DNA of 64,000 nt from IMG/VR virus record IMGVR_UViG_3300033997_000136, positions 124,001-188,000 of that record. One strand, 5' to 3'. Source of the DNA: a virus. Position numbers and translations under genes: made by a program. The notes under the pieces were generated by a model. It was not told the origin of the DNA, searched no databases, and saw nothing but the letters and a program-made list of their open reading frames with translations. The stretch's first letter is position 1; every line of letters starts with the position of its first letter. This document shows, one piece after another, positions 1,498 to 25,245 of this stretch.

Positions 1498-4041
1498 TTA
1501 ATTAACGGCCATCACAGACACGTATGGTAAATCGCGCGCATCAAAACCGTTAACGTTCGTACTTACGTTCAACGAGTTAACAGGTCTTGTATCACTAGAT
1601 TGTTGACTCACCGTACCGTCACCAGACGCATCATTATCACTAGCAAAACCAAATACAGCATAGTTAGTATTCGCTATAGAGTTCAGATAATTTATGCGAT
1701 AACGACCTTGTGAGATTCGAGTAATTGATGACACATTGCTTGAACGCTGGATAGAAGGGGTTGAGTTACCAGAACCCGTACCTAGCCATGCGACAAACAT
1801 AACGATGTTACCACCACCAGTTAACAGTGAATTTAACTGTTGCACTTGTGTAGCAGTCATCACACCCGCATTACCAGTGGTTGCAGCAGCGATAGCTACA
1901 GCACCGCCTGTGGACGAATACAGAGTGACATTACTACCGCCATATGCAGCACTTAGGTTAGTGCCCACATTGACCTGTGCACCGGCTTGGATGCCGTTTA
2001 GTTTAGCCTTATCAGAAGCACTTAACAAACCAGCGTAGCTAGTTGTTGCACCCAAAACAGTACCAGTAGCACCCGTTGATGAGTACATATAACCGTTAGT
2101 AGGGTCAGCACCATAACTAAGGTTAGTAGGAACGTTGACTTGAGCACCAGCTTGGATGCTGTCAATTTTCTGAATATAAGCAGCAGTAACAATACCTGCA
2201 CCTGATGCACTTGCTCGCGGTAAGTTAACACCACTACCTGTTGATGAATATACCGCCGCGTCAACTGTCGATTGTCCAACTGACAGATTAGTACCTACGT
2301 TCACTTGGGCACCAGCTTGGATACCATCTAACTTCGCTTTATCTGCTGCAGATAATGTACCAGCATTAGATTGCGTAGCAGCAGGAAATACTGTGCCGGA
2401 ACCCGTTGATGAACTTACTGTCACATTCGATGCGTTTGCCGTACTGCCTAAATTGGTTGGTACGTTGACTTGAGCACCTGCGGCGATACCATTCAACTTA
2501 GACAACAATGCGTCAGTAAAGTCGTTCTTACTTAATGCATAACCCGTCACTTTATCCACTTTCAAGTTAAGGGCGTTTTGTTGTGCAGTTGAAACAGGTT
2601 TATTTACATCACTGGTGTTATCTGCATTTCCCAAACCTACTTGTGCTTTGGTCACACTGTGTGGGTTATCCGTACGTGCGATGTGTGCGTTAAGTGGTGT
2701 AACCGCTTGTGATGTAATTGCTTCTTTGACACGCAGTGGTGTCATGTACTCAGTATTCACTGTACCAGCAACTGCTTCCGCAGTGGTAGCAATACCGTAG
2801 TTCTCCACGCTACCTAACCCCACTTGCGCTTTAGTGGTTGCATGTGGGTTATCAGTTCTGGCGATGTGTGCGTTTAACGGTGTTACAGCTTGAGCCGTAA
2901 TAGCCTCTTTGACGCGCAGTGGTGTCATATACCGATTAGATACAGTACCCGCAGTCGCTTCAGCAGTTGATGAGATTGGATAATCTTCGACACTACCTAA
3001 TCCCACTTGCGCCTTAGTCGTCGCATGTGGATTGTCAGTACGCGCGATGTGCGCGTTCAGAGGAGTCACTGCCTGCAATGTGATTGCCTGCTTTACTCTC
3101 AGGGGTGTCATGTAAAGAATGTTTGATGTACCTGTTTCAGCAGATGCTTGGTCAGATATTCCATAATTCTCTACACTTCCAAGTCCAACCTGTGCTTTAG
3201 TCGTTGAATGTGGGTTGTTGGTATTCACCAAGTGGTCAGTAATAGGTTTACCATTTCCTGTTTGGAAATAATACGTCATCGCTAACGGAGTCACATAACT
3301 CGTTGCTTGCAACGTTCCTAACATCTGAGCTTGAGTCGATAAACCGTAGTTCTGCACTAACCCTAATCCCACTTGCGCCTTAGTCGTCGCATGTGGGTTA
3401 CTGGTATTGTTGACGTGGCTGTTTAAATTAGCGTTAGTGGTATCGATGCGAGCATGAAGCTCAGCGTCTTTTAAATTTACCCACTGACGCATTTCATCAA
3501 ATGCAGCTTGGTCACCATAAAGAACAGCACGTGTACATCTGTCAACCGCTTCAACCACGTATTCAAAACCGTAGATGTCACCGATGTCATGTAAGTGATG
3601 TACTGGTGTAAATGCGTGAGGTTTGCCTAATAAGTCACCCCAGCGGACGCTGCGATTATCTAAGTTTAAGTTAGCAATTAACTCAAACAGAATATCAACA
3701 ACGCTTGTGTAACGACCACCCACATACCGCAAATCAACTGTAACAGCACTATCCACTTGCGGATTAGTGACTATGATAGCTGCCATGGTTTCTAAACCAC
3801 TGCGTTCACTTGCTTCTTTGTGATACATGACTGGTACGTAATCAACGACAGGAATCAACACACGACCTGTGATAGATTCACGAACCACTAAATCTTTCGT
3901 AGAATAGAAGCAACCCAAACGAGGGATGATAAGACGATTAACACCAGCAGCTAATGTGTGTTGTTCACCGCGTATGTAGTTTGAACTGAGTACACCTTCC
4001 AAATCTAGCGGAAGTGGGGTGGTGATAATAGTATCCGTCAT
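1498..4041 (-). CDS. Long tail fibre protein with two repeat types
   Basis: An 847-residue fibre. Residues about 1-190 form a module resembling the N-terminus of the 682-residue fibre at 11511-13559 (EQH start, LRYVGG, HDIGDIYG), probably the virion-anchoring part. Five repeats of NPH-TTKAQVGLG-VENYGI with YMTPLRVKEAI spacers follow, then about four repeats of GIQAGAQVNV-TNLS with YSSTGS. The last 100 residues lack repeats and resemble receptor-binding tips of other phage fibres (GRYRINYLNSIANTNYAV). A CGGAG site precedes the ATG. It probably recognises the host surface. Confidence 0.85.
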   Translation of the reverse strand: MTDTIITTPLPLDLEGVLSSNYIRGEQHTLAAGVNRLIIPRLGCFYSTKDLVVRESITGRVLIPVVDYVPVMYHKEASERSGLETMAAIIVTNPQVDSAVTVDLRYVGGRYTSVVDILFELIANLNLDNRSVRWGDLLGKPHAFTPVHHLHDIGDIYGFEYVVEAVDRCTRAVLYGDQAAFDEMRQWVNLKDAELHARIDTTNANLNSHVNNTSNPHATTKAQVGLGLVQNYGLSTQAQMLGTLQATSYVTPLAMTYYFQTGNGKPITDHLVNTNNPHSTTKAQVGLGSVENYGISDQASAETGTSNILYMTPLRVKQAITLQAVTPLNAHIARTDNPHATTKAQVGLGSVEDYPISSTAEATAGTVSNRYMTPLRVKEAITAQAVTPLNAHIARTDNPHATTKAQVGLGSVENYGIATTAEAVAGTVNTEYMTPLRVKEAITSQAVTPLNAHIARTDNPHSVTKAQVGLGNADNTSDVNKPVSTAQQNALNLKVDKVTGYALSKNDFTDALLSKLNGIAAGAQVNVPTNLGSTANASNVTVSSSTGSGTVFPAATQSNAGTLSAADKAKLDGIQAGAQVNVGTNLSVGQSTVDAAVYSSTGSGVNLPRASASGAGIVTAAYIQKIDSIQAGAQVNVPTNLSYGADPTNGYMYSSTGATGTVLGATTSYAGLLSASDKAKLNGIQAGAQVNVGTNLSAAYGGSNVTLYSSTGGAVAIAAATTGNAGVMTATQVQQLNSLLTGGGNIVMFVAWLGTGSGNSTPSIQRSSNVSSITRISQGRYRINYLNSIANTNYAVFGFASDNDASGDGTVSQQSSDTRPVNSLNVSTNVNGFDARDLPYVSVMAVN
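2640..3420 (-). repeat. Tandem coding repeats in tail fibre
   Basis: Repeat units of about 180-200 bp encode NPHATTKAQVGLG motifs. Blocks reading close to CCCACTTGCGCCTTAGTCG recur near 2820, 3000 and 3365, and a related copy occurs in the second fibre gene near 12215. Confidence 0.8.
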
Positions 4042-6460: not shown

Positions 6461-9208
6461 TTAAGCGCTTGGACCAACAGAGCCGTAAACAACTCCATCG
6501 ATATACGTTAAAATAATCATCGTCCAGTTAGCAGCTAACACTGGGGCTAAGCCATCTGCCCATTGAACACCGGCTGGCCAGTTTGTCGCTCTGTTACCGA
6601 TCACTTGCAATACAACACTCATAGAGCGTGTAGCCGCTGGTGGGTTAGTAATAGAGATAGTTCTGGTTGAACCTGGGTCGGTAATTTTCCACACTTGTGA
6701 TGTAGCTAAGTTTACAGCGCCAGTAGATGTTCCTAACAATAATGAATACTTGTTAAGTAACGTACCATCGCCTGATTTTGTAAACAGATCATCCAAACGA
6801 CTACGATCCACAGCACGCATCAAACCAGCATCAGTTGCGCTCGCATTTAACAGAGTTATCGTGTTACCAGTCGATGAACTGATGTCTATATCGAACAAAC
6901 CTACTCTGGTGATACTTAAGTTTGTGGCCACATTCACTTGAGCGCCTGCGGCGATGCCGTCTAACTTAGTTTTATCAGCAGAAGACATTACACCAGCTAA
7001 AGATGTAGTTGCAACAGGGAGTGAAGCGCTAGAACCCGTAGAAGATGTCACAGGAACCGTAGTGGTTGTGCGAGTACCTACACCTAAGTTCGTCGCAACG
7101 TTCACTTGGGCACCAGCTTGGATACCATCTAACTTTGTCTTCATGGCTGATGCGTTCCACCACGCGTTAATCGCTTGGAACACGCGCTGTGCAGTCCAAG
7201 CACGGCGAGTAGTCGCTGTACCAGCTTCAGCTTCTGCTTGTGTGATAGTAGCGGCAGTCCACTCACGAGCGTCTGTGAGACGCGCATCAGATGTATCTAC
7301 TTTTAAATCCAAAGCAGCTTGTAAACCAGCAATAGACGCAATGCTTAACGAATCTAACTCAGCGCGGTTTAACTTGATATAATCCACAATTTCTTGCAAC
7401 TCATCAAGTGTAGTGTCATCAGACGTTAACAGTGTGTTAATACTGTCAATCAACCCTTTTAACACTTTACCTTGTTCAGCAGATAACGGAACTGTTGTTC
7501 CACCAGCAGTCAAGTTATTGACAACCGATGCGATGTTTAACTTTAAGTTCAGTGCAGTTTGCTGCGCTGTACTGACTGGTTTGTTAGCATCAGATGTGTT
7601 ATCGACGTTAGCTAAACCTACATCAGCTTTCACTAATGTCACAGCACCGGTTTTACTGGCTACTGAGGTTACGGTGTTAACCTGTGCTCCAGTTTCAATA
7701 CCGTCTAATTTGGTTTTGAATGTCGAAGACGCCCACCATGCAGCGATTGCTTGAAATACGCGTAATGGTGTAAATGCAAAGCGAGAGGTAGAGATACCAG
7801 CTTCTGCGTCCGCTTGGCTTACTGTAGATGCAGTCCACTCACGAGCATTTGTTAAGCGAGTATCGTTGATACCTACTTTGTTAGCTTCCAACCCATCTGT
7901 TAGTTGTTTTAAGACGTAACCTTGGTTAGCTGTTAATGGTTCTATGCTACCCGGACTGGTTAAGTTATCGACCGTTGCTGGAATAGATAAATTCCAATCA
8001 GAAGACCACACTACATTGTTATCAACACCATTACTGAGTGCTGTATTACAGTGACGAGTGAAACGTTTATTAGTTGCGTTTTCTTGCGCTACAAAACTAA
8101 TCCGTTTAGACGTTGTACCAAACACGACTACGGAGAACTCCATCGCTACTGAAGAATTCAAACCAGGGAACGCACTTGGTAGTGCTGTAAACTGGTAAAT
8201 ACCTTGTGGAATAGCACCCAATACAGTTTTGTCCTGACTGTAGAACGGGTCTCTGGATGTTCCTGTTAAGAAGTTAACATACTGCACAGGAATCGCAGTG
8301 ATATCAGCTTTTAAATCTAGCGCAGCCTGCAATCCAGCGATTGATGCGATGTTCAGTGATTCCAAATCTGCGCGGTTTAACTTGATGTAATCCACAATTT
8401 CTTGTAGTTCATCTAACGTACCGTCGTCAGTTTGTAACACAGAGTTAATCGTATCGATTAAACCCTTTAACACACGACCTTGATTTGCTGATAAAGCTGC
8501 AGCACCATCTGTCGATGTCAAGTTATCAATCACGTCACTTGCATCTAACTTGGTTTCGTTTAATGCATCAGTTAATGCTTTTAACGCAACACCTTGTGCT
8601 GCGGACAACGCTTTAGCTGGGTCATTCGTGATTAAGTTATTCACAACTTCCACAGTTGTACCAAATGAGTGGTATGCACCTGTGTCGTAGTAATACGCGA
8701 CACTAGTGTCGCGAGCTACGTAGATAACTTTCTCTTGACCTATTTGTGGGAAACCTGCAAACGTCGTGAAGAACTCGTAAGCAATACCAGTATCTGGTGC
8801 ACCGCTAAATAAGTTATCTGTAGAGATAACCACCAGGCGACCCGCTGTCTCTGCAGTATGTGTTACTGTGATAGTTTCTTCTGTCACTTGAATTGACGGA
8901 AAATACGCGTAACCATTTGTGTCATACGCTTGAACAGTGACGTCTGTTGAGCCAAAAACGTTATCCACGTTCCATGTAAAGACTGGAATCGTTTGGATAT
9001 GAGTTTTCACCATACCAGCACGACCTAATGGAACCCACACAGTCGTTGCATTTTCACCAGAACCTAAAATTGCGCTTAACCACAATTGATTCTGATAAAT
9101 AGCAAGAATGTGTGCTTCTGCGGTAGGCGACAATTCAGACACCGTACCTGTAAACCGGGTTTGACCTTGGTTCACTGTATTTTGTAACACTCGTACTGAC
9201 CGAGTCAT
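6461..9208 (-). CDS. Large tail fibre protein with duplicated helical segment
   Basis: A 915-residue fibre. The N-terminal ~180 residues are beta-rich (VLQNTVNQGQTRFTGTV start), plausibly a virion-attachment module. A segment with NLTS-DGA-LSANQGRVLKGLID and LDELQEIVDYIKLNRADLESL occurs at about residues 228-300 and again near 566-640. NLTSPGSIEPLTANQGYVLK is a shorter related copy. GIQAGAQVNV-TNLG units, shared with the 847-residue fibre, follow. The C-terminus (WPAGVQWADGLAPVL) resembles ends of other phage fibres. AGGAG precedes the ATG. Its assembly partner is probably the next gene. Confidence 0.85.
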   Translation of the reverse strand: MTRSVRVLQNTVNQGQTRFTGTVSELSPTAEAHILAIYQNQLWLSAILGSGENATTVWVPLGRAGMVKTHIQTIPVFTWNVDNVFGSTDVTVQAYDTNGYAYFPSIQVTEETITVTHTAETAGRLVVISTDNLFSGAPDTGIAYEFFTTFAGFPQIGQEKVIYVARDTSVAYYYDTGAYHSFGTTVEVVNNLITNDPAKALSAAQGVALKALTDALNETKLDASDVIDNLTSTDGAAALSANQGRVLKGLIDTINSVLQTDDGTLDELQEIVDYIKLNRADLESLNIASIAGLQAALDLKADITAIPVQYVNFLTGTSRDPFYSQDKTVLGAIPQGIYQFTALPSAFPGLNSSVAMEFSVVVFGTTSKRISFVAQENATNKRFTRHCNTALSNGVDNNVVWSSDWNLSIPATVDNLTSPGSIEPLTANQGYVLKQLTDGLEANKVGINDTRLTNAREWTASTVSQADAEAGISTSRFAFTPLRVFQAIAAWWASSTFKTKLDGIETGAQVNTVTSVASKTGAVTLVKADVGLANVDNTSDANKPVSTAQQTALNLKLNIASVVNNLTAGGTTVPLSAEQGKVLKGLIDSINTLLTSDDTTLDELQEIVDYIKLNRAELDSLSIASIAGLQAALDLKVDTSDARLTDAREWTAATITQAEAEAGTATTRRAWTAQRVFQAINAWWNASAMKTKLDGIQAGAQVNVATNLGVGTRTTTTVPVTSSTGSSASLPVATTSLAGVMSSADKTKLDGIAAGAQVNVATNLSITRVGLFDIDISSSTGNTITLLNASATDAGLMRAVDRSRLDDLFTKSGDGTLLNKYSLLLGTSTGAVNLATSQVWKITDPGSTRTISITNPPAATRSMSVVLQVIGNRATNWPAGVQWADGLAPVLAANWTMIILTYIDGVVYGSVGPSA
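7300..7500 (-). repeat. Intragenic duplication, copy 1
   Basis: Pairs with the segment near 8305-8510, about 1 kb away in the same fibre gene. Both encode LDELQEIVDYIKLNRA and SIASIAGLQAALDLK, with clear but imperfect nucleotide identity. Confidence 0.75.
8305..8510 (-). repeat. Intragenic duplication, copy 2
   Basis: Second copy of the duplicated fibre segment described for 7300-7500. Confidence 0.75.
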
Positions 9209-11510: not shown

Positions 11511-13559
11511 TTAATAAGGTACGTAAAACGTGACATATGCCACTAACGTCCGAGCTTCAGTTAACGTGATTGTTATCTGGTTTGAATTCGTTGTATCAAT
11601 CGAGGCAAAGATTGGATTGTTATCAATCGCATCTTTTAACACCACCGAGTAATCTTCCGTATTCATGTTGTGTGTGATACTTATGGTCTCAGTATCTGCT
11701 GAGGTAAAACGACGTGTAATTGCACGAACGTAAGATGCGTCACGTACATCATTAAATGGGTTTTGCAATTTACTTTTCAGCAATTGAACACCCACATACG
11801 CTTGTGTATTTGTATCGTAATCTTCAACTGTTCCCAATCTCAGATTTTCCACACTACCAAGACCCACCTGTGCTTTTGTTACAGCATGTGGATTCTCTTG
11901 ATTTGAAATGTGGTTTGTAATCTGTGTTTGAATTGGGTTAAACCATTGCAATAACACACTTGGCGTTAAATACGTTGTGTTACTATTCTGAGTTACATCA
12001 GTTGCCGTTGCAACAGCATAGTTTTGTACTAATCCTAATCCCACTTGGTCTTTAGTGACTTGGTGTGGATTGTCTCTAGCATCAACGTGAGTGGTTATTG
12101 TTGTTGCAACAAACGAGACCATAGCTTCTTTCACACGAAGTGGAGTCATGTAACTTGCGTTATCAGTACCCGCTTCAGCCACAACTTTTGTTGCAACCGC
12201 GTAGTTCTCTACGCTACCTAATCCCACTTGCGCCTTTGTAGTCGCATGTGGATTATCGGTGCGTTGAGTGTGAGCAGTCAATGGAGTAATGGCTTGTAAA
12301 ACAATGGCTTCACTGACTCGAAGTGGAGTCATGTATTTTGTGTTACTAGCTCCTTCTTCAGCTTCTTGTTTTGTAGCCACACCGTAGTTTTCAACATCAC
12401 TTAACCCCACTTGAGTCTTAGTCACTTGGTGAGGGTTATTTGTACTATTGATGTGAGACGATGTATCAGTTAAACGACCGTTAACAAAAGCAACGACACC
12501 CGCAGGTGTTGCGTAATGTGTGGTACTACCAGAGGTGTAATCGTCAATACCTGCTATTTCAAAGTTTTGAACATTACCTAAACCTACCTGAGTTTTGGTC
12601 GTGTTGTGTGGGTTACTTGTACTACTAATGTGTTGTACAATGGCTAAACCACTACCCGCAGCAAAATACGTCGCAAGAGACGCAGGTGTCATGTATTTAT
12701 CAGATGGAAGTGTTGTGCCACTCATGTCTGATGTACTTGCGATACCGTAGTTCTGAACGTTACTTAACCCCACTTGAGTTTTAGTGGTCTCATGTGGATT
12801 GTTCTTATCAGCGACGTGTTCTGCAACACCACCTTCAGAGAGCTGTGCAATTAATGAACGAGTTAATGAAGGTGTCATTAGCTTGTCTTGTGCACCAGCG
12901 CCATCTAAATCAGATAACAATGCTACTGCAAAGTTAGGCACATTGCCAAGACCTACTTGCTCTTTAGTGACTTGGTGAGGGTTAGCTAAGTTGTTGATGT
13001 GCTCGTCAGGAGTTTGACCACCTGTGTTTCCAGTGATAGCTTCTGCTAAGTTGTGAATACTTTCAACCAACTCAGTCGCACCTACCATGTCATCTAAATC
13101 CCACTCGTGGTCGATGACAGGGAAACCATACGGTAGTTCTTGAACTTCTTCCCATGCAGTGATACGTGGGTTTACTGCGTTGCTTAGCAGCAATTCTAAC
13201 GCACGTGCTTCATCAATCTGCCAATCACCACCTAAGTAACGAATACGTTCAACAGCGATTGTACCTGCAAGTGTTCTATCTAAAATACAGATAGCACCAT
13301 ATACAGGTTTTGCAGTAGCACGTGATGCACTAACAAACGGCCAACCTAAGTGGTAATCTACACCGTTCACTAGTTGACGACCAGATGGGTAATGGACTAG
13401 CTTTAAATCACGTTCAAAGAAAGGACCAGACTTTGGTACGATGAAATAAAAATCAGGAGTCACATCCGGTGGAGCAATGATGTGCTGTTCATCGGTGCGA
13501 ACGTTTGACGCAGCCGTCCCGGTAGGGTCAAACGGGTAACGTAAAGTAATATCAGACAT
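11511..13559 (-). CDS. Tail fibre protein with seven NPH repeats
   Basis: A 682-residue fibre. Residues 1-170 form the anchor-like module shared with the 847-residue fibre (DEQHIIAPPD, RIRYLGGDW, IDHEWDLDDM). Seven repeats of NPH-TK-QVGLG-V-NY follow, separated by KYMTP-LRV-EAI-type spacers. The final ~80 residues (ETISITHNMNTEDYSVVLK) form a beta domain related to the 345-residue protein's end. GAGG precedes the ATG at 13559. It is the first gene of the minus-strand fibre unit, divergent from the plus-strand gene at 13652. Confidence 0.85.
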   Translation of the reverse strand: MSDITLRYPFDPTGTAASNVRTDEQHIIAPPDVTPDFYFIVPKSGPFFERDLKLVHYPSGRQLVNGVDYHLGWPFVSASRATAKPVYGAICILDRTLAGTIAVERIRYLGGDWQIDEARALELLLSNAVNPRITAWEEVQELPYGFPVIDHEWDLDDMVGATELVESIHNLAEAITGNTGGQTPDEHINNLANPHQVTKEQVGLGNVPNFAVALLSDLDGAGAQDKLMTPSLTRSLIAQLSEGGVAEHVADKNNPHETTKTQVGLSNVQNYGIASTSDMSGTTLPSDKYMTPASLATYFAAGSGLAIVQHISSTSNPHNTTKTQVGLGNVQNFEIAGIDDYTSGSTTHYATPAGVVAFVNGRLTDTSSHINSTNNPHQVTKTQVGLSDVENYGVATKQEAEEGASNTKYMTPLRVSEAIVLQAITPLTAHTQRTDNPHATTKAQVGLGSVENYAVATKVVAEAGTDNASYMTPLRVKEAMVSFVATTITTHVDARDNPHQVTKDQVGLGLVQNYAVATATDVTQNSNTTYLTPSVLLQWFNPIQTQITNHISNQENPHAVTKAQVGLGSVENLRLGTVEDYDTNTQAYVGVQLLKSKLQNPFNDVRDASYVRAITRRFTSADTETISITHNMNTEDYSVVLKDAIDNNPIFASIDTTNSNQITITLTEARTLVAYVTFYVPY
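11860..13000 (-). repeat. Tandem coding repeats in second tail fibre
   Basis: Seven degenerate units of about 165-195 bp encode NPH-TK-QVGLG motifs. The unit near 12200-12260 is closest in DNA to those in the 847-residue fibre gene. Confidence 0.8.
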
Positions 13560-17668: not shown

Positions 17669-17692
17669 TAAAATTAAAGTGGTGTGTACACA

Positions 17693-20179
17693 ATGATTAT
17701 TGATGAATTAGAATTGTGTGGATTTAAGCGGATTGCATTAAGTTGTATTGAACGAATCTGCATTACTCCAACCAATGCGTATCAAATCTTTCTAGGTGGG
17801 AATGGGTGTGGTAAATCATCTATCCTCGATGAATGGTCACCACTTCCACCGAACGATAATGACTTTTATGAGAACGGGTTTAAACGGTGTGCATTTAGAC
17901 ATAACGAAGTTAGTTACACTGTGTTATCTACCATGGGGAAAAAGAAACACCATAGTTTTATTCGACATGATGAAACAGGGGATATAGAACTCAATGAAGG
18001 TGGAACGATTTCAGTTCAACGTGAGTTATGTCAACAACTGTTTAATCTTAATCGTGAGATGTTTGACTTGCTATTAGGGAAGTCTCTTTTTACAGAGATG
18101 TCTCCGACAGTTGAACGTCGTTCATTGATTACTCGAATGAGTGCGGATGATTTAACATTTGCTACTAAATTTTACAATCAAATGGCAAGTGCTGAGCGTG
18201 ATGCTAAAGGTGCTCTTGCACACGCCCATAAACGATTAACCGCAGAAACTGATAAGCTACTAGCTCTTAATGCAGACGATAGCTTAGAGAACGATGTAGA
18301 GGCCATACAGAACGATTTAACATCGCTACTGGAATTAAAACGCCCTCAACATGAAGATGCGTTTACTATCGAGCAAAAACTTCACCACGTGTATACAGAA
18401 TTAGAACGTGTCATTGATAGTTCTGTTATGCATCCGTTTTATGAACACAACACACAAGGTTATGCATCCAGTGAAGCAATTCGTGATGATTTAAATCATT
18501 ATCGAACTAAAAAGCAAATGACCATAGAAGTCTTGAATACCCACGTTCAAGATTACGAAGCAAAGCAGAAGTTTATTGAAACGTTTGATAAACTGGGTGA
18601 CGGTGAATCTCCTGATGAGTTGTATCAGCGTAAAGCTCAGTTGGAGTCTAAACGAGACAACTTAACAAAACGGATTAAGCTCTTTACGTTCAGCGGTGAT
18701 GTGTCGCGAGACATCCCATCACTTCAAACATTCAGAGCTTCTGTACTTGGCGCATTAGGGCAGATTCCTGATAACTCTGATAAACAGTTTAGTCGGACTA
18801 ACTTAACGATGTTTCAACAAAAACATCAGCAGTTAAACGATGAACGTGCATCGCTTATGATTCGATTAAATCGCATCGATGAATACCTTGACCATGTAAA
18901 ACACGCACATCAGAACAACTGCCCTAAGTGTGGCTATGTATGGACCCCTGGTGTTGATGTCAGTCAACATGAACGACATGTAGCTGAGCGTGGTCAACTG
19001 ATTATTCAAATAAAGCAATGTGAAGGTGCATTAGACGATACAAGTCAATCTATTGATAAAATACTGTATTACATCGATGCAATGCGTCGATTGAAGACTG
19101 TGTTCAATGACATGTCTCGTTCTCAAAACTTGTTAGACTACATCTTAAGTGAAGGTCGAATTTATAATCAGCCTGCGCATCTTGGTGGAGTTGTGGATAC
19201 ATGGGTTGAGGATATGTACATTCATCATGAACTCTCTCGTGTTCAAGTGGATATGCAGTGGGTAGTAGATGCGTTAGCGCTACATCAACAAACAGAAGGT
19301 GTTGATGCTAATGCAATGAAAACTTCGCTACAGTTACTTGAAGAGACCATAGGGCGAATTACACACGATGTTCATGAACTTCAATTTACAATTGACGTGT
19401 TAGAACGACTTTATAAAGAAGCACTGGATGTGGAACGCTTAGAACAACGGCGATTGCAGTTGGATGAAGAACGTACACGGTGGTTGTCTATTTATGAAAG
19501 TAGTGTGTTTGAGGAATCTCGGACGGAGTTAGTTCGCTACTACCAACAAGTCCTTGCACAAAAGACAGTGAAGTTAAATGAGAAACGTTCATTAACCGCA
19601 GTCATCTCTGACTTGAAGCGAGACACTGAGGAGTTGGAACAAACGTATCAAGGGTATAAACTAGCAGCAAAAGCGTTGTCACCGGTAGATGGTCTTATTG
19701 CAAAACAAATGATTCAATTTATTGAGGTGATTGTTGACCACATGAATGAAATTATTTCTGCAATATGGACGACACCGTTGGTTATTAAAGTGTGTGCGAC
19801 TGAAGACAAAGGATTAAATTACAAATTCCCTATTGAAGTGGGTATTGAACAAAACCGAGTGAGTGATGTTTCAGAAGCCAGTAAAGGTCAAAAAGAAATC
19901 ATTAACTTTGCGTTTCGTTTAGTGGCCATCCTGTATCTAGGGTTTGATGATTTTCCATTGTACTTGGATGAAGTCGGTCAGAACTTTGATGAAACACATG
20001 AGCCTGCGTTTATGAACTACGTCAAAATGTTAGTTGATGCACATCGTCATAGTCAACTTGTGATGGTGTCTCACTCTGCTGCATTTTACGGTGCGTTTAA
20101 CACTGCAGACTTCTGTGTACTCAGTCAAACAAACATTACCGTTCCATCGCATCATAACGCACATGTGGTGATGTCATGA
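17693..20179 (+). CDS. Rad50/SbcC-like ATPase (T4 gp46-like)
   Basis: An 828-residue SMC-type ATPase, expected to work with an Mre11/SbcD-type nuclease in DNA end processing and recombination. The nuclease is not in this window. Visible features are Walker A GGNGCGKSS at residues 35-43, long coiled-coil arms, a zinc hook CPKC at 410-413, a signature-like SEASKGQKE near 728, and Walker B LYLDEVGQNFDE with Asp759-Glu760. It is longer than T4 gp46 and shorter than E. coli SbcC. ATG 17693 is preferred over GTG 17684 for spacing from AAAGTGG. It heads the plus-strand unit with the SLOG and macro genes. Confidence 0.9.
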   Translation: MIIDELELCGFKRIALSCIERICITPTNAYQIFLGGNGCGKSSILDEWSPLPPNDNDFYENGFKRCAFRHNEVSYTVLSTMGKKKHHSFIRHDETGDIELNEGGTISVQRELCQQLFNLNREMFDLLLGKSLFTEMSPTVERRSLITRMSADDLTFATKFYNQMASAERDAKGALAHAHKRLTAETDKLLALNADDSLENDVEAIQNDLTSLLELKRPQHEDAFTIEQKLHHVYTELERVIDSSVMHPFYEHNTQGYASSEAIRDDLNHYRTKKQMTIEVLNTHVQDYEAKQKFIETFDKLGDGESPDELYQRKAQLESKRDNLTKRIKLFTFSGDVSRDIPSLQTFRASVLGALGQIPDNSDKQFSRTNLTMFQQKHQQLNDERASLMIRLNRIDEYLDHVKHAHQNNCPKCGYVWTPGVDVSQHERHVAERGQLIIQIKQCEGALDDTSQSIDKILYYIDAMRRLKTVFNDMSRSQNLLDYILSEGRIYNQPAHLGGVVDTWVEDMYIHHELSRVQVDMQWVVDALALHQQTEGVDANAMKTSLQLLEETIGRITHDVHELQFTIDVLERLYKEALDVERLEQRRLQLDEERTRWLSIYESSVFEESRTELVRYYQQVLAQKTVKLNEKRSLTAVISDLKRDTEELEQTYQGYKLAAKALSPVDGLIAKQMIQFIEVIVDHMNEIISAIWTTPLVIKVCATEDKGLNYKFPIEVGIEQNRVSDVSEASKGQKEIINFAFRLVAILYLGFDDFPLYLDEVGQNFDETHEPAFMNYVKMLVDAHRHSQLVMVSHSAAFYGAFNTADFCVLSQTNITVPSHHNAHVVMS

Positions 20180-20271
20180 TGTTATTTCTAACTTCCTACC
20201 TGCTAGGAGCTTGTATCTTAGCAGGTATTCAAATTGGTCTTAGGAGATGGTGTAATGCACACAACGTTTAA
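20176..20271 (+). CDS. Tiny membrane peptide overlapping two genes
   Basis: A 31-residue ORF starting in an ATGATGA overlap with the Rad50-like stop and ending 17 bases inside the SLOG gene. It encodes one hydrophobic helix (LFLTSYLLGACILAGIQIGL) followed by a basic tail (RRWC). LGAC is only a weak lipobox. There is no separate ribosome site, so expression would depend on coupling to the upstream gene. The double overlap and clean membrane helix favour a real gene, but chance is not excluded. Confidence 0.4.
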   Translation: MMLFLTSYLLGACILAGIQIGLRRWCNAHNV

Positions 20272-20818
20272 AGAACATAAGTCGGAGAAGTATACACCGA
20301 GAACGTATGCAAATGCATGTCGTGCTGATGTGACTGTAGCTATCGCTGTTGACTTTACTACGGCTGGTGAGAAGTGCACAAAAACTGCAGCAAAGAAAAA
20401 GTATGTCTCATACGACTTTGAAAGTGACCCTGTGACGTGTGGTGAGCTTTTCGCTAATCACTGTAAAACGTTTGGTGTGAAGATAGTGAATGTTGCTGGA
20501 AATGGAATTTATACATTCTCTCGACACAACTACACTCAACATCAGGTCAATGTATGGATGTTAGATTTTATTGAAACATTGATACTACACTATCCGCAGA
20601 TAACTTTGTTTATTAGTGGGGGTCAGACTGGAGTTGATTTCTCAATTGGTGTTGTATGTGAGTTGTTAGGTCTTCAATGCGAGATGTTATTCCCAAAAGG
20701 ATTTATACAGCGCCACACAAACAAACATGACCGGAGTATGGATACATTAGAGTTAGAGGAAGACTTAGAACGGTATGTTGAACAATTGCGTGAATTCATT
20801 CAGTTTCGTTTTGATTAG
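20255..20818 (+). CDS. SLOG-superfamily protein (YpsA/MoCo-carrier-like, permuted order)
   Basis: A 187-residue protein. ISGGQTGVDFSIGVVCELLG near residues 121-140 is the nucleotide-binding loop typical of SLOG/YpsA/molybdenum-carrier-like proteins, followed by LFPKGF. In those proteins the loop is usually N-terminal; here the other half comes first (RTYANACRADVTVAIAVDF near 17, TAGEKCT, then VNVAGNGIYTF near 80). The fold suggests binding of nucleotides or ADP-ribose derivatives, but no reaction can be named. The start is ATG 20255, with AGGAG eight bases upstream. A macro-domain gene lies 600 bases downstream. Confidence 0.7.
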   Translation: MHTTFKEHKSEKYTPRTYANACRADVTVAIAVDFTTAGEKCTKTAAKKKYVSYDFESDPVTCGELFANHCKTFGVKIVNVAGNGIYTFSRHNYTQHQVNVWMLDFIETLILHYPQITLFISGGQTGVDFSIGVVCELLGLQCEMLFPKGFIQRHTNKHDRSMDTLELEEDLERYVEQLREFIQFRFD

Positions 20819-20847
20819 GTGTAGGGGTGCAGATGCACCTCTACACC
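20818..20847 (+). terminator. Terminator hairpin
   Basis: 14-bp stem with one G-U pair and a 2-base centre, overlapping the last base of the SLOG gene, followed by TTTGATTG. Confidence 0.7.
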
Positions 20848-20884
20848 TTTGATTGTATAAAATTTCAAATACATATTACACACG

Positions 20885-20892
20885 TGATATGG
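20885..20892 (+). promoter_or_regulatory. Candidate phage promoter motif TGATATGG
   Basis: Directly downstream of the SLOG terminator and 27 bases before the ATG at 20919, followed by ATAAAATAAA. Confidence 0.45.
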
Positions 20893-20918
20893 ATAAAATA
20901 AATCCCACGGAGTTATGT

Positions 20919-21041
20919 ATGAAGAATCAAAAACGCTATGTAAACACAATTGGTTTTTACCTTGTAATTCAAAACGGTAAAACAATCCGCAAATCATGTT
21001 CGCCTTCTCTTCAGGAGAAGAAATTAATAGGGACTAAATAG
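20919..21041 (+). CDS. Small basic protein, 40 aa
   Basis: ATG 20919 has CGGAG eight bases upstream. The product is basic and short (MKNQKRYVNTIGFYLVIQNG, ending EKKLIGTK), with no membrane segment. It is the first gene after the candidate promoter at 20885 and is followed three bases later by the next small gene. Function unknown. Confidence 0.55.
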   Translation: MKNQKRYVNTIGFYLVIQNGKTIRKSCSPSLQEKKLIGTK

Positions 21042-21043
21042 AA

Positions 21044-21160
21044 ATGGAATTAGGGAAAGTATTGTACGTTGTTGTAGTGCTTGCAGTCTATGTAGGTGGT
21101 GTGTACTACATTCGTAAAGATGGTATTTCTAAAATGAAGAAGGATAAGACTCATGTTTAA
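21044..21160 (+). CDS. Tiny single-pass membrane protein, 38 aa
   Basis: Sequence begins MELGKVLYVVVVLAVYVGGV. It has one hydrophobic helix over residues 5-22 followed by a strongly basic tail (RKDGISKMKKDK), as in an N-out/C-in inner-membrane peptide. Its end overlaps the next ORF by eight bases. No function is known to me for this peptide. Confidence 0.5.
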   Translation: MELGKVLYVVVVLAVYVGGVYYIRKDGISKMKKDKTHV

Positions 21161-21227
21161 TTTTATAGTGATCTGTTTACTGTGTGTGATTATTTATCAA
21201 TTAAATAAGATAGCGAAAAAGAAGTAG
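21153..21227 (+). CDS. Tiny membrane peptide, 24 aa
   Basis: ATG 21153 has AAGGAT about eight bases upstream and lies within the previous gene's last codons. The peptide is one hydrophobic helix (FIVICLLCVIIYQL) plus a basic end (KIAKKK). It is very short, and supported mainly by the overlapping arrangement and matching membrane topology of its neighbours. Confidence 0.4.
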   Translation: MFNFIVICLLCVIIYQLNKIAKKK

Positions 21228-21228
21228 T

Positions 21229-21390
21229 ATGGGTTGGTTAATGGTGTTACCAATCTCCTATGTGCTGTCTTCACTTTTATTGTTAGTAGCACTCCTCAAA
21301 GAAGACCATAAGCTCTGGAGACACATGATACTGTTAGTCGTGTTTAACGCACTCTTAACGTATATAGTGTACTCCAGCCAACAGCCGTGA
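21229..21390 (+). CDS. Small two-helix membrane protein, 53 aa
   Basis: ATG 21229 lies one base after the previous stop. It has two hydrophobic segments: residues 4-23 (LMVLPISYVLSSLLLLVALL) and 33-48 (MILLVVFNALLTYIVY), joined by a charged loop KEDHKLWRH. It ends inside the left arm of the terminator at 21383. Pinholin, holin-like or membrane-sensing roles are possible, with no direct evidence. Confidence 0.5.
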   Translation: MGWLMVLPISYVLSSLLLLVALLKEDHKLWRHMILLVVFNALLTYIVYSSQQP

Positions 21391-21402
21391 TTCGTCACGG
21401 CT
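21383..21402 (+). terminator. Rho-independent terminator
   Basis: 8-bp perfect stem (AGCCGTGA) with TTCG tetraloop and a TTTATTTTTT tail. It overlaps the stop of the 53-residue gene and lies just before the macro-domain gene. Confidence 0.85.
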
Positions 21403-21424
21403 TTTATTTTTTGTCGAGGTTCGT

Positions 21425-21901
21425 ATGGCAACATTTCGAAAAGGAAATATGTTAGCCCATTGGAAAGAAGCTGACTTACTCTTAATTACAACAAACTCTA
21501 CGTTAAAGAAAAATGGTGCGTTAGTCATGGGTGCAGGTATTGCTGTGACTATCCGTGACCGATTCAGAGATGTGGATAAGTTATTAGGTCGAATGATATC
21601 ATCGGTGTGTGGACATCATGGTCTTTATGGTGTTATCACTGGGGATTGGTTAACGGATAAAAAGAAGAAACTAGGTATCTTTCAAGTCAAGAAAGACTGG
21701 GAAGGGTCTGCAGATATTGACATCATCAAATACAGCACGTTGCGTTTAATGGATATCGCTGAGAAACACCCAAACGCCGTTATCTTCTTAAATTTTCCTG
21801 GAATAGGGAATGGTAAACTTCCTCGTGAAGATGTTTTACCTATTATCTCTAAACTTCCTGATAACGTTGTGATATGGGAATACGACGAAGACTGTCGTTA
21901 A
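21425..21901 (+). CDS. Macro-domain protein (ADP-ribose-binding type)
   Basis: A 158-residue single macro domain. It has LLITTNSTLKKNGALVMGAG near residues 19-38, the ADP-ribose binding loop with N23 and N29 and the GAG turn, and FPGIGNGKLPREDVLPII near 124-141, matching the second loop. Macro domains bind ADP-ribose, and some remove it from proteins or hydrolyse its 1''-phosphate. The ligand here is unknown. GAGG precedes the ATG. A SLOG gene nearby suggests shared nucleotide or NAD-derived metabolism, possibly anti-defence; that is inference. Confidence 0.85.
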   Translation: MATFRKGNMLAHWKEADLLLITTNSTLKKNGALVMGAGIAVTIRDRFRDVDKLLGRMISSVCGHHGLYGVITGDWLTDKKKKLGIFQVKKDWEGSADIDIIKYSTLRLMDIAEKHPNAVIFLNFPGIGNGKLPREDVLPIISKLPDNVVIWEYDEDCR

Positions 21902-21957
21902 AGTATGACGCAATGTCGCTCTTTCATTATTAGTTAACTAACTTTAAGGTGGTTTTT

Positions 21958-22611
21958 ATGGCAGTTGAATGCGAATTTCAATGGTATGCCAAACTCAAAG
22001 GTGCTGAAGATAAACCAACACCTGAGAAGCTTGCTCCTATTTTCCCAGCCGGTATTGTTTCTGTTGTTTTACAAGAACAGTTTCAAATGAAGTTAGTGAC
22101 TGAAAAAGTAGAAAAAGCGATAGTGCGTTCCAGGATGAAAACGCCATGTGATGGTTTATTTCACGAAGTAGGCACACCAACGTACCACTTCGAACACAAA
22201 GTGGCTTTACCGAATACTGCAGGTCAGAACGAACCGTATTTAGCTGGGAGTGAAGAGATTCATTTAATCTACAAAGCCATTGGCAGTGGATTAGTTAAGT
22301 ACCGTGTAAGTTATCCATGTATCATCTCACTTACAGATGTACATGGAGTCGTAACGGATTATGAGACTTTATGGGAAGTGGATGTATTTGTCAAACCAGA
22401 CGGATATCTTCATGAGTGGGTAAAAGTCGATGTGGAGATACCTGAAGCGATTGCTGAACAGGTTTTATATCACGTTAAACACGATACAGGATTGGTGAAA
22501 TTAAGCGCATTTCCATTACCTGTGGTCGATATGTTTGACGCCACATATGGGTTTATCGCCCCGGAAAATCAAGCAAGGGTAGATTCTATACTTGCTCAAG
22601 TCCGCCATTAA
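21958..22611 (+). CDS. Unknown protein, 217 aa
   Basis: ATG 21958 follows AAGGTGG by five bases and is preferred to GTG 21949. The product looks soluble and beta-rich (IHLIYKAIGSGLVKYRVSY, DYETLWEVDVFVKPDGYL), with no signal or membrane segment. It lies after the macro-domain gene in the same direction and 14 bases before the next gene. No family was recognised. Confidence 0.65.
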   Translation: MAVECEFQWYAKLKGAEDKPTPEKLAPIFPAGIVSVVLQEQFQMKLVTEKVEKAIVRSRMKTPCDGLFHEVGTPTYHFEHKVALPNTAGQNEPYLAGSEEIHLIYKAIGSGLVKYRVSYPCIISLTDVHGVVTDYETLWEVDVFVKPDGYLHEWVKVDVEIPEAIAEQVLYHVKHDTGLVKLSAFPLPVVDMFDATYGFIAPENQARVDSILAQVRH

Positions 22612-22625
22612 GTAAGGGTTGTACA

Positions 22626-23204
22626 ATGGAAACTGCAAAACTCGTTGTTACACAGGAGTCGTTACGTGATTTAGCATTAAGAGACGCAGGTCTATTAGGT
22701 GTAGTTGACGTAAGCGATGTCATGGGTACGTTAAACGATCTTAAAAATCAAGTGACTGGATGGCGGTTTGTTTGGATATCAAAGAAAACTGATGGTCCTT
22801 TAAAACGTGGCTTAATCAAAGCAATCCCAACCAGCTTTGAAAATAAGACCATGATGGAAAAAGCACTTACCACACGATTGATACGTCGTCGTCATTTGCA
22901 TCCGTACTATGCTTCGGGTGTAATCCGCATTGCAAGTAAAATTCGTGCTGGTATGTCTGAGCGAGTCATTGACTTTGCATTAGACTTTATTCAGAATCAT
23001 CCAGATATGGGTCTAGGTGATGATGAAGATGCTTTTCCAAACTTAGTGAAGTCCTTAAAGATAGATACAACACTAAGTGTAAAATCGTTGTTGCTTGCTC
23101 GTAAAATGATTCCAAAAGTAAGAATACTTCTTGCACATAAACCGGAATCGTTTAAAAGTAAAGCACCAAACCTTCAAAAGAAAAACGATGTCCCTGAAGC
23201 GTAA
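22626..23204 (+). CDS. Unknown helical protein, 192 aa
   Basis: Begins at ATG 22626 with AAGGG seven bases upstream. The sequence is helical and basic, with RLIRRRHLHPYYASGVIRIASKI around residue 82 and a lysine-rich C-terminus. It is the last gene of the plus-strand unit, facing a minus-strand virion-type gene across a bidirectional terminator. A nucleic-acid-binding role would fit the charge, but no motif shows it. Confidence 0.6.
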   Translation: METAKLVVTQESLRDLALRDAGLLGVVDVSDVMGTLNDLKNQVTGWRFVWISKKTDGPLKRGLIKAIPTSFENKTMMEKALTTRLIRRRHLHPYYASGVIRIASKIRAGMSERVIDFALDFIQNHPDMGLGDDEDAFPNLVKSLKIDTTLSVKSLLLARKMIPKVRILLAHKPESFKSKAPNLQKKNDVPEA

Positions 23205-23208
23205 CGTG

Positions 23209-23265
23209 ATAGAAGAGACTAGAGAGGGGAAACCCTCTCTAGTCTTCTTTATTTTTTGTTTATGG
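23209..23265. repeat. 57-bp exact repeat, copy 1
   Basis: Identical over 57 bases to 36581-36637. It contains the whole convergent-junction terminator and the final Pro codon plus TAA stop of the minus-strand gene. Confidence 0.9.
23217..23244. terminator. Bidirectional terminator
   Basis: 12-bp perfect stem (GACTAGAGAGGG) with a GAAA loop, between convergent genes ending at 23204 and 23260. The plus side continues TTCTTTATTTTTTG. Confidence 0.85.
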
Positions 23266-23889
23266 AGCAGGTGGCAAATCTTCAACTAAACCAGAATCCA
23301 CAATGATTTGCTGTAACCGCTGTACTTCAGAGGTAAGCGCTGCATTCTCTTCAACCAGTTTACGCCATTTACTGTACGTCGTCGGGTTATTCGTGATGCG
23401 ATTCAAACGTGCTGCTTCTTTTGTTTCATGGTCATTCACACCCACAATACCTGTCGTTGGTGCTATACCGACTTTTACTTCAGAAGTACAACCGATTGAG
23501 TTATCCACTATCTCACGAATTGATGTATCTATCCCTGACAAATCCACGTAATCTGGTAATGCACCCAAATCAACAGCTAACACAACCCGTTGATACGTCA
23601 CTGCATTCAAATCTGGATAAGAAAGGATGTACGTATCGGGTACGTACACAACCTGATTATCTTCAGAAATTAATGTAATGATGTGTGCATTTTCACTACG
23701 GTCTTGTTGGAATTCAACGTCCGTTAGATTAACTGGTTTATAGAAGGTAGTAAATACATCAATACCCCGTTCATAAATATCCTTAAATGAACGAATCGCA
23801 TGACATGTAAATACCTGTGTAGCATCCACTGTAAACGGAGTCTTTGTAACATACCGTCCACGTAACCCTGGGGTAGGTGTCTTTCTCAT
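23260..23889 (-). CDS. Virion-type protein with C-terminal coiled coil
   Basis: A 209-residue protein. The start is ATG 23889, with AGGAG nine bases upstream, in preference to an upstream TTG. The N-terminal two-thirds is beta-rich (VDATQVFTCHAIRSF, NQVVYVPDTYILSYPDL). The C-terminus is a helical heptad region (LVEENAALTSEVQRLQQII). It lies 12 bases after the 447-residue gene, so the two form one unit. A structural role is inferred from this pairing. No family was recognised. Confidence 0.6.
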   Translation of the reverse strand: MRKTPTPGLRGRYVTKTPFTVDATQVFTCHAIRSFKDIYERGIDVFTTFYKPVNLTDVEFQQDRSENAHIITLISEDNQVVYVPDTYILSYPDLNAVTYQRVVLAVDLGALPDYVDLSGIDTSIREIVDNSIGCTSEVKVGIAPTTGIVGVNDHETKEAARLNRITNNPTTYSKWRKLVEENAALTSEVQRLQQIIVDSGLVEDLPPAP

Positions 23890-23901
23890 GACCAACTACT
23901 C

Positions 23902-25245
23902 CTATGGATTTTGTGCATCTACGAAATCTAAGTAGGATTTCTGAGACACAACAAGGTACTGAACGTCTTCATACGTCACTGCTGCATACAACACACCGCT
24001 ACGTACTAAACGTGTAATCCGAGCAGGCATGTCGCTAAACTCAGTCATGGTTTCAGCAAGACGAATCATCTCACTGATAAGAACAACCCAGTCTTGTGTA
24101 CGAGGTGACATACGACTGAACTCAAACGAGGTACTTGCTGCTACTACGTAATCATTGAACCGTTCTTTGAGCTTAAACTTCTCATCACGGTTTTCAGGAC
24201 CCCCTACTGTAATCGCACCCATCGAACGATAGATGAATACGTTCGTTGATAAGTATTCCTGAATATGCTCACGGGTATACGTCGGTGCAAACGCAACTAA
24301 ACGGTCTACAGCGATTTTGTAATCAACCATAGGGCTGAACAAACCTTGCTGAATCGTTTCGTTAGGAATGGAATAGTTATCCCACAATGGAACGATGATG
24401 TGTTCCGTTGTTTTGAAGATATCAGGTAAATACTGAATCCAGACATCACGTGGGAATGCTGAGTTAGACAAGATATAATTGACTAATGCATTCTTAATGT
24501 TGTCCAGTGTATTACCTGCCAAACCATAGATAATCAAACCCCATGGTGTACGGACAATCTTGTCAGGTTCATCTGGATTTGACCAGTCAAATAAACGAAC
24601 TGATGTTACTGTATCAGGATAAACACCACGAGCTTCTTGTAAGCGATACTGACGCTCTGTATCGTCCTGTGACGCGATTAAGTCACGAACAATAGCATAC
24701 CCTTGGATAAGGTCATCTACGTTGTCTACAGGCGGTACAACGACGATTTCAAACTCATCGTACTGTCTGCGAAACGCATCATCAATAAACCAAATCTTAA
24801 TGCGGTTTTCTTCTTCGACTGAAGGAAACCCTGTTACGTTCATGGCTTTAAATGAGATAAACTCAGGGAAGAAAATCCCTTGAGCCACTTGAATCATCGC
24901 GCCAGCAGAGATGTCTTCAACATCACCGCCCCAACGTACTAATACGTCATTTGCAAAATCTGTAGATGAGTCAGTAAATGCACCGTTAATTGATTCATTA
25001 CCTACCCAGTTACACACTTCGATGATACGACGAACGTAACTATCTGGAACCTTTACCATACCGCCATCAGTCACGACAGAAGACATGGTAAATAAATCAA
25101 AGTTAGGGAAGTCCGGGAGACTGTATTGTCCTAACTCTTTTGTATATGTTTTTGCATAGGTAGAAAGTTCACCTACACTGGAATTTAAACCTGGGGCATT
25201 TTGAATCACAAGACTCAACGATGCAAAACCTTTCAAACTGTACAT
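23902..25245 (-). CDS. Virion structural protein, unknown family
   Basis: A 447-residue protein whose ATG at 25245 begins MYSLKGFASLSLVIQNAPGLN. It is acidic overall with a large mixed alpha/beta body (VPDSYVRRIIEVCNWVGNESING, SAGAMIQVAQGIFFPEFISF, FKLKERFNDYVVAASTSFEF) and no membrane segment. With the 209-residue gene it forms a two-gene minus-strand unit divergent from the membrane-protein/lipoprotein pair. Size and context fit a head or tail protein of a phiKZ-like virion. The specific role is unknown. Confidence 0.55.
   Translation of the reverse strand: MYSLKGFASLSLVIQNAPGLNSSVGELSTYAKTYTKELGQYSLPDFPNFDLFTMSSVVTDGGMVKVPDSYVRRIIEVCNWVGNESINGAFTDSSTDFANDVLVRWGGDVEDISAGAMIQVAQGIFFPEFISFKAMNVTGFPSVEEENRIKIWFIDDAFRRQYDEFEIVVVPPVDNVDDLIQGYAIVRDLIASQDDTERQYRLQEARGVYPDTVTSVRLFDWSNPDEPDKIVRTPWGLIIYGLAGNTLDNIKNALVNYILSNSAFPRDVWIQYLPDIFKTTEHIIVPLWDNYSIPNETIQQGLFSPMVDYKIAVDRLVAFAPTYTREHIQEYLSTNVFIYRSMGAITVGGPENRDEKFKLKERFNDYVVAASTSFEFSRMSPRTQDWVVLISEMIRLAETMTEFSDMPARITRLVRSGVLYAAVTYEDVQYLVVSQKSYLDFVDAQNP

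Follow-up and report, generated by a model that had tools for sequence, protein, structure and literature searches.

A circularly permuted SLOG protein and a DarG/TARG1-type macrodomain as candidate counter-defence cargo in a phiKZ-like jumbo phage

Why would a jumbo phage carry a SLOG-type protein, a cluster of tiny open reading frames (ORFs) and a macrodomain protein directly behind an SbcC/Rad50-like gene? The question is raised by a 64,000-base stretch of viral DNA, here called the window, which comprises bases 124001-188000 of the 213,150-base IMG/VR virus record IMGVR_UViG_3300033997_000136. Positions below are those of the window unless the record is named. An earlier note, written from the letters alone, had described these genes as a compact cassette. 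The genes are real, but they form three units rather than a single cassette. With about even confidence, we interpret the stretch as cargo for counter-defence, carried in a variable slot of a jumbo phage that probably forms a nucleus. Two proteins are central to this interpretation:

20255..20818, plus strand: SLOG protein of 187 amino acids (aa), circularly permuted relative to cpYpsA
21425..21901, plus strand: stand-alone macrodomain of the DarG/TARG1 type, 158 aa

Two proteins with conserved pockets

The macrodomain protein matches phrog_335 (E 1.7e-19) and falls below the threshold of Pfam's own Macro model. DarG (E 4e-20) and TARG1 (E 1e-11) come out on top when a profile of 61 relatives is compared with the Protein Data Bank (PDB). 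A Foldseek search with the predicted structure (pLDDT 94) places DarG structures at all of ranks 1-4, followed by TARG1, so the fold proposed in the earlier note holds and its closest relatives by both routes are DarG and TARG1. The PADLOC model for DarG also matches the protein (E 5e-5). The NCBIfam model for DarG (NF048014) yields 27.6 bits against a cut-off of 250 and matches the N-terminal part only, a shortfall attributable to the missing C-terminal half of DarG. Residues K89, N24, G36, G38 and G130 are invariant in 61/61 homologues. In the printed alignment K89 aligns with DarG K80 and W92 with W83, and N24 corresponds to N22 by motif spacing. Mutation of K80 inactivates DarG (PMC5179494), and both TARG1 and DarG also release ADP-ribose from uracil in RNA (PMC13036486).

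The predicted pocket of the macrodomain is intact and highly conserved. The protein may be an ADP-ribosyl hydrolase with K89 in the role of DarG K80, and it would remove ADP-ribose from the thymine bases of DNA or the uracil bases of RNA to undo the action of host DarT-like toxins. The protein is a further member of the known DarG/TARG1 kind, and the general counter-defence idea was published in 2022. This macro family has no further member in the phage record. The nearest macro relative found by the scan (contig L006) was set aside, as it comes from an unrelated high-GC phage that lacks a SLOG gene.

The SLOG gene starts at the ATG at position 20255, which is preceded by GGAG; the TTG at 20234 is not the real start. 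Its product belongs to phrog_10774 (E 3.2e-49) and scores 32.8 bits against the Pfam cpYpsA model (PF12694), above the cut-off of 26.2, which confirms the SLOG assignment; two relatives score 42.6 and 49.9 bits. However, the match is out of register. Residues 5-83 align to profile positions 45-125, and residues 122-128 carry the GGQTGvD motif, which comes first in the cpYpsA profile. A profile of 48 homologues matches the structure 3imk in two stretches whose order is swapped (113-148 to 6-41 and 4-82 to 54-136; E 5e-14). Rotation of the sequence at the swap point creates a single match over profile positions 2-125 with 39.8 bits, versus 32.8 bits for the native sequence and 27.2 bits for a control rotation.

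This rearrangement can be described with three segments: A is the strand carrying N.AG, B is the GGQTG segment, and C is the SD-T..AGE segment. Ordinary SLOG proteins such as LOG and YpsA have the order A-B-C. The order is B-C-A in cpYpsA, with the GGQTGvD segment first, whereas the phage SLOG family has C-A-B, a third cyclic order. An AF2 model of the protein (pLDDT 97.4) aligns only partially with PDB structures (TMq 0.45 for 3imk), as expected because of the permutation. Some records label the protein a 'molybdenum carrier'; the cpYpsA family formerly went by this name, which is unsupported here. The C-A-B order is not mentioned in the literature searched, which did not cover the founding 2015 SLOG paper. 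The permuted shape appears to be new, although its novelty is not proven.

Across the 48 SLOG homologues, 17 residues are invariant. The predicted pocket of this protein is likewise intact and strongly conserved, including its loop residues. The earlier note had named pockets without key ligand residues among the findings that would refute its anti-defence or metabolite-sensing module, and because both pockets are intact and highly conserved, this objection falls away. The permuted SLOG protein may bind or cleave an ADP-ribose-type or other adenine nucleotide that arises in the same conflict. The two proteins would probably work in parallel and independently of each other, without forming one complex.

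A variable slot and its three units

The record contains a multi-subunit RNA polymerase beta gene (phrog_2986, E 3e-179) as well as a tail sheath gene and genes for other virion proteins, and its best phage matches, at about 40% identity, are from phiKZ-like phages. These features place it among the phiKZ-like jumbo phages. A 665-aa reading frame at record positions 207968-209668 is homologous to chimallin, the nuclear shell protein of phage 201phi2-1 (24% identity, E 1.7e-18). The phage is therefore probably nucleus-forming and Chimalliviridae-like, and the two hallmarks of that group, here a chimallin homologue and the multi-subunit RNA polymerase, are both present in the record. Large tail-fibre-like genes occupy the minus strand at 1498-4041, 6461-9208 and 11511-13559, where repeated domains match the same PHROGs several times. 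A Nudix-family gene (E 2.1e-15) lies on the minus strand at record positions 120739-121077, 3 kb to the left of the window.

The gene order in this part of the window is a baseplate gene, the SbcC-like gene, the slot (20180-23259), a conserved gene pair and an RNase H gene. In addition to the SLOG and macro genes and the tiny ORFs described below, the slot and its borders include the following features:

17684..20179, plus strand: SbcC/Rad50-like ATPase, left border of the slot (phrog_77, E 2.6e-67)
21958..22611, plus strand: uncharacterised slot protein (phrog_14791, unknown function, E 1.7e-12, scanned from 21949)
22626..23204, plus strand: uncharacterised slot protein with no Pfam, PHROG, PADLOC or NCBIfam match
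23215..23246, strand not assigned: hairpin terminator that closes the slot on the right
23260..25245, minus strand: right border of the slot, a conserved pair of genes for an uncharacterised protein and a virion structural protein (phrog_3293); the pair in pEa_SNUABM_54 matches with blastp E 1e-39 and 1e-83

The left border gene, correctly recognised from the start as Rad50-like, has homologues in 272 phage records, mainly from phiKZ-like phages. The PADLOC match of its product to the LmuB model of Lamassu (E 2.8e-13) probably reflects general SMC similarity. For the slot protein at 21958-22611, tblastn against phages gave no match.

In Erwinia phage pEa_SNUABM_54 and Klebsiella phage Eowyn, homologues of the border genes follow one another in this order, with the slot left empty (about 40 bp and 84 bp, respectively). 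Other relatives carry one gene (FLC9 and DT01), two genes (FLC6) or three genes (LucasX) at this position. Because the content differs between related phages, the stretch from the SLOG gene to the macro gene is cargo in a spot that varies among them. No close relative of the entire locus was found by DNA search or by single-protein scans of viral contigs.

The tiny ORFs and the terminators that surround them are as follows:

20176..20271, plus strand: 31-aa membrane ORF (maximum hydropathy 2.07)
20817..20848, plus strand: intrinsic terminator after the SLOG gene (14-bp stem, -26 kcal/mol, z -5.59)
20919..21041, plus strand: 40-aa basic ORF, not a membrane protein, with GGAG upstream
21044..21160, plus strand: 38-aa ORF with one hydrophobic stretch
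21153..21227, plus strand: 24-aa hydrophobic ORF with AAGGA upstream
21229..21390, plus strand: 53-aa hydrophobic ORF, probably with two membrane helices
21383..21402, plus strand: intrinsic terminator ahead of the macro gene, 22 bp from its start (z -4.43)

The 31-aa ORF overlaps two genes as described earlier, sharing 4 bp (ATGA) with the SbcC-like gene and 17 bp with the SLOG gene, and it has no strong Shine-Dalgarno sequence. At least three overlapping tiny membrane ORFs had also been described there. ORFs of 38, 24 and 53 aa are indeed present, but only the first two overlap (by 8 bp), the third begins 1 bp after the stop of the 24-aa ORF, and the neighbouring 40-aa ORF is basic. Their tight spacing suggests that they are real genes. 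Within the 606 bases from 20819 to 21424 there are three hydrophobic plus-strand ORFs against a mean of 0.13 in dinucleotide shuffles, and 0/2000 shuffles reached three. The tiny ORFs are probably translated, but none of them, including the 31-aa ORF, has a relative among 197 fetched sequences, and the 38-aa and 53-aa ORFs have no homologue in the phage collection at E<=10. A sequence similar to a phiKZ early promoter motif, CATATTAC, is located at 20866-20880, 47 bp before the 40-aa ORF; no other gene start in the window has such a site nearby. We consider this promoter-like site (at 20872) a lead only.

The terminators after the SLOG gene and before the macro gene divide the stretch into three, and they suggest separate transcription units for the SLOG gene, the tiny ORFs and the macro gene. 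The term 'compact cassette' is therefore misleading. These data also bear on the proposal that the membrane peptides, the SLOG protein and the macrodomain act together as a single membrane-linked sensor or effector. Physical closeness, the probable translation of the tiny ORFs and the overlap of the 31-aa ORF with both the SbcC-like and SLOG genes are compatible with such a module. However, two terminators part the three units, no peptide is conserved in the fetched loci, and relatives of both the SLOG protein and the macrodomain exist without the peptides, which makes a combined module very improbable. Nothing links the tiny ORFs functionally to the SLOG or macro gene. Because they lie between two strong terminators, the tiny membrane peptides would constitute a separate and unrelated unit.

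Neighbours of the SLOG family and the possible functions

The SLOG family reaches at least 79 viral contigs and 14 bacterial genome contigs. Phage relatives with 30-45% identity occur in Vibrio phages (including ICP1) and in Enterovibrio, Pseudomonas and crAss-like phages. The bacterial examples (L102-L115) are from Pseudomonas, Burkholderiaceae, Flavobacteriaceae and others. In many crAss-like contigs, among them L059, L061 and L064, the permuted domain is embedded in reading frames of 1800-3300 aa, and in L059 a NADAR match is found about 100 bp from the SLOG domain in one shared frame.

Several of these genes are neighbours of known or predicted ADP-ribose counter-defence genes. In ICP1, the SLOG gene (gp146) overlaps by 4 bp the gene for AdfB (gp145), a proven anti-DarT factor that blocks the toxin DarT (PMC11481870); residue 62 of this gp145 is the reported G62 allele. 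The AdfB paper does not mention gp146. Vibrio phage P1 carries a 56%-identical AdfB one gene downstream of its SLOG gene. Phages 1.121 and RYC, as well as contig L053, have NADAR genes adjoining or near the SLOG gene, and phiPMW has a Nudix gene directly upstream. The NADAR protein of T4 takes off guanine-linked ADP-ribose (PMC11125620, PMC11833690). The closeness of SLOG genes to NADAR or macro genes gives a post hoc combined p of 0.002 over nine distances, a value that assumes uniform gene placement and comes from cases that were not chosen blind. The link between adfB and a SLOG gene in ICP1, like the permuted SLOG form itself, appears to be unreported in the literature searched.

The presence of AdfB, NADAR and Nudix genes beside SLOG genes in unrelated phages supports the anti-defence idea that the earlier note had put forward for the SLOG and macro proteins. 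In 2022 Iyer et al. had proposed a role in countering ADP-ribose signals for the SLOG, Macro, NADAR and Nudix proteins of phages, and reported SLOG in 31% of jumbo phages (PMC9503650).

Some observations weigh against this interpretation. Beside SLOG genes, an ATP-dependent DNA ligase (7/88) and a metallophosphatase (6/88) are more frequent than NADAR (3/88). The terminators speak against one operon. A solid macro match is present in 4/50 SLOG-bearing viral contigs (5 with one weak match inside a 4391-aa frame), and a DarG-type macro gene was seen directly adjacent to a SLOG gene only in this phage. The macro genes near SLOG genes in L029 and L038 are of another subtype, and the one in L038 is part of an RNA-repair run, so their closeness was dropped as support. 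Finally, a phage nucleus is reported to protect DNA from DNA-targeting defences (PMC11797060). With a chimallin homologue in the record, removal of ADP-ribose from DNA may be less needed.

The frequency of ligase and metallophosphatase neighbours also leaves room for a repair role, in which the SLOG protein, and perhaps the macrodomain, would clear nucleotide or ADP-ribose by-products of phage DNA or RNA repair as accessories to end processing. PIF1 helicase (3/88) and Pnkp are further neighbours that fit, as is the location of the window SLOG gene directly after the SbcC-like gene. The run at L038:1081-5528 (macro of the HGCNAQG subtype, metallophosphatase, RNA ligase, HNH, Pnkp and SLOG) is RNA-repair-like. 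However, the NAPRTase, KptA, RNA_ligase and NADAR families have no match across the phage record. NARP-type synthesis of nicotinamide adenine dinucleotide (NAD) and KptA-type RNA repair in the same phage were rejected on these grounds, and the missing KptA and RNA_ligase families count against repair more generally. With the ICP1 homologue beside adfB and several relatives beside NADAR, we view a repair role as a rather unlikely explanation.

Another possibility is that both proteins act only on soluble signals, binding or degrading Thoeris-type cyclic ADP-ribose (cADPR) or related messengers. Genome-wide co-occurrence accompanies the published proposal to this effect, and the YpsA-like clade includes cADPR sensors (PMC9503650). 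There is also a precedent in RyDEP, a phage RyR-domain protein that degrades cADPR (PMC13232231). Neither the SLOG protein nor the macrodomain has a Pfam match to the RyR domain. The macrodomain is of the lysine type seen in DarG and TARG1, a class known to accept ADP-ribose linked to bases and to proteins among its substrates, and the best-tested SLOG neighbour, AdfB, counters DarT rather than Thoeris. A purely soluble target is thus unlikely.

Under the counter-defence interpretation, the exposed targets could be cytoplasmic RNA, or phage DNA at the stage when no nucleus has yet formed. More speculatively, the permuted SLOG protein might be a new type of enzyme for counter-defence, one that breaks down or sequesters an ADP-ribose product, either soluble or attached to a base, alongside DarT-counteracting AdfB, NADAR or DarG-type macro proteins, with cytoplasmic ADP-ribosylated RNA as the macro target in a nucleus-forming phage. 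We offer this version tentatively and consider it doubtful.

The phrog_10774 family, including ICP1 gp146, is open to experimental study, shows a cyclic order of SLOG segments that was absent from the literature searched, and has phage members adjoining proven or likely ADP-ribose counter-defence genes. If nucleus-forming phages still carry a DarG-type hydrolase although their DNA is already protected from DNA-targeting defences, this would point either to RNA ADP-ribosylation or to an early, vulnerable stage that precedes the nucleus. The variable slot beside the SbcC-like gene is also a place to seek more counter-defence genes in phiKZ-like phages.

Comparison with known systems

The macrodomain resembles that of DarG (5M31, 5M3E, 5M3I, 7OMU) and TARG1 in its fold, the residues of the ADP-ribose loop, the catalytic lysine and the equivalent of W83. 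It differs from DarG in being a stand-alone protein that lacks the C-terminal, DarT-binding domain that mimics single-stranded DNA, and from DarTG systems in having no cognate darT next door. The scan for DarT, which was limited to the SbcC-like protein, the SLOG protein and the two downstream proteins, gave no match. The macro profile also matches 201phi2-1 gp167 and phiKZ gp104, which are annotated as ADP-ribose binding (E 1.9e-20), but these are located elsewhere in the phiKZ-like genome.

The phage SLOG protein shares with cpYpsA (PF12694; 3IMK) the motifs Y..RT..N, SD/AD-T, GG/AGE..T, N.AG and GGQTGvD..PKG, but the GGQTGvD segment is N-terminal in 3IMK and C-terminal in the phage protein. 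AdfB provides a parallel in that it counters DarT and its gene overlaps one for a SLOG protein of this family, although AdfB binds DarT directly and has no homology to the SLOG protein or the macrodomain. Another counterpart is ICP1 gp146, which is of the same family, has 40% identity and shows a segment order identical to that of the window SLOG protein. Its gene is flanked by a Dda-like helicase gene and adfB, whereas the SLOG gene described here is flanked by SbcC and macro genes.

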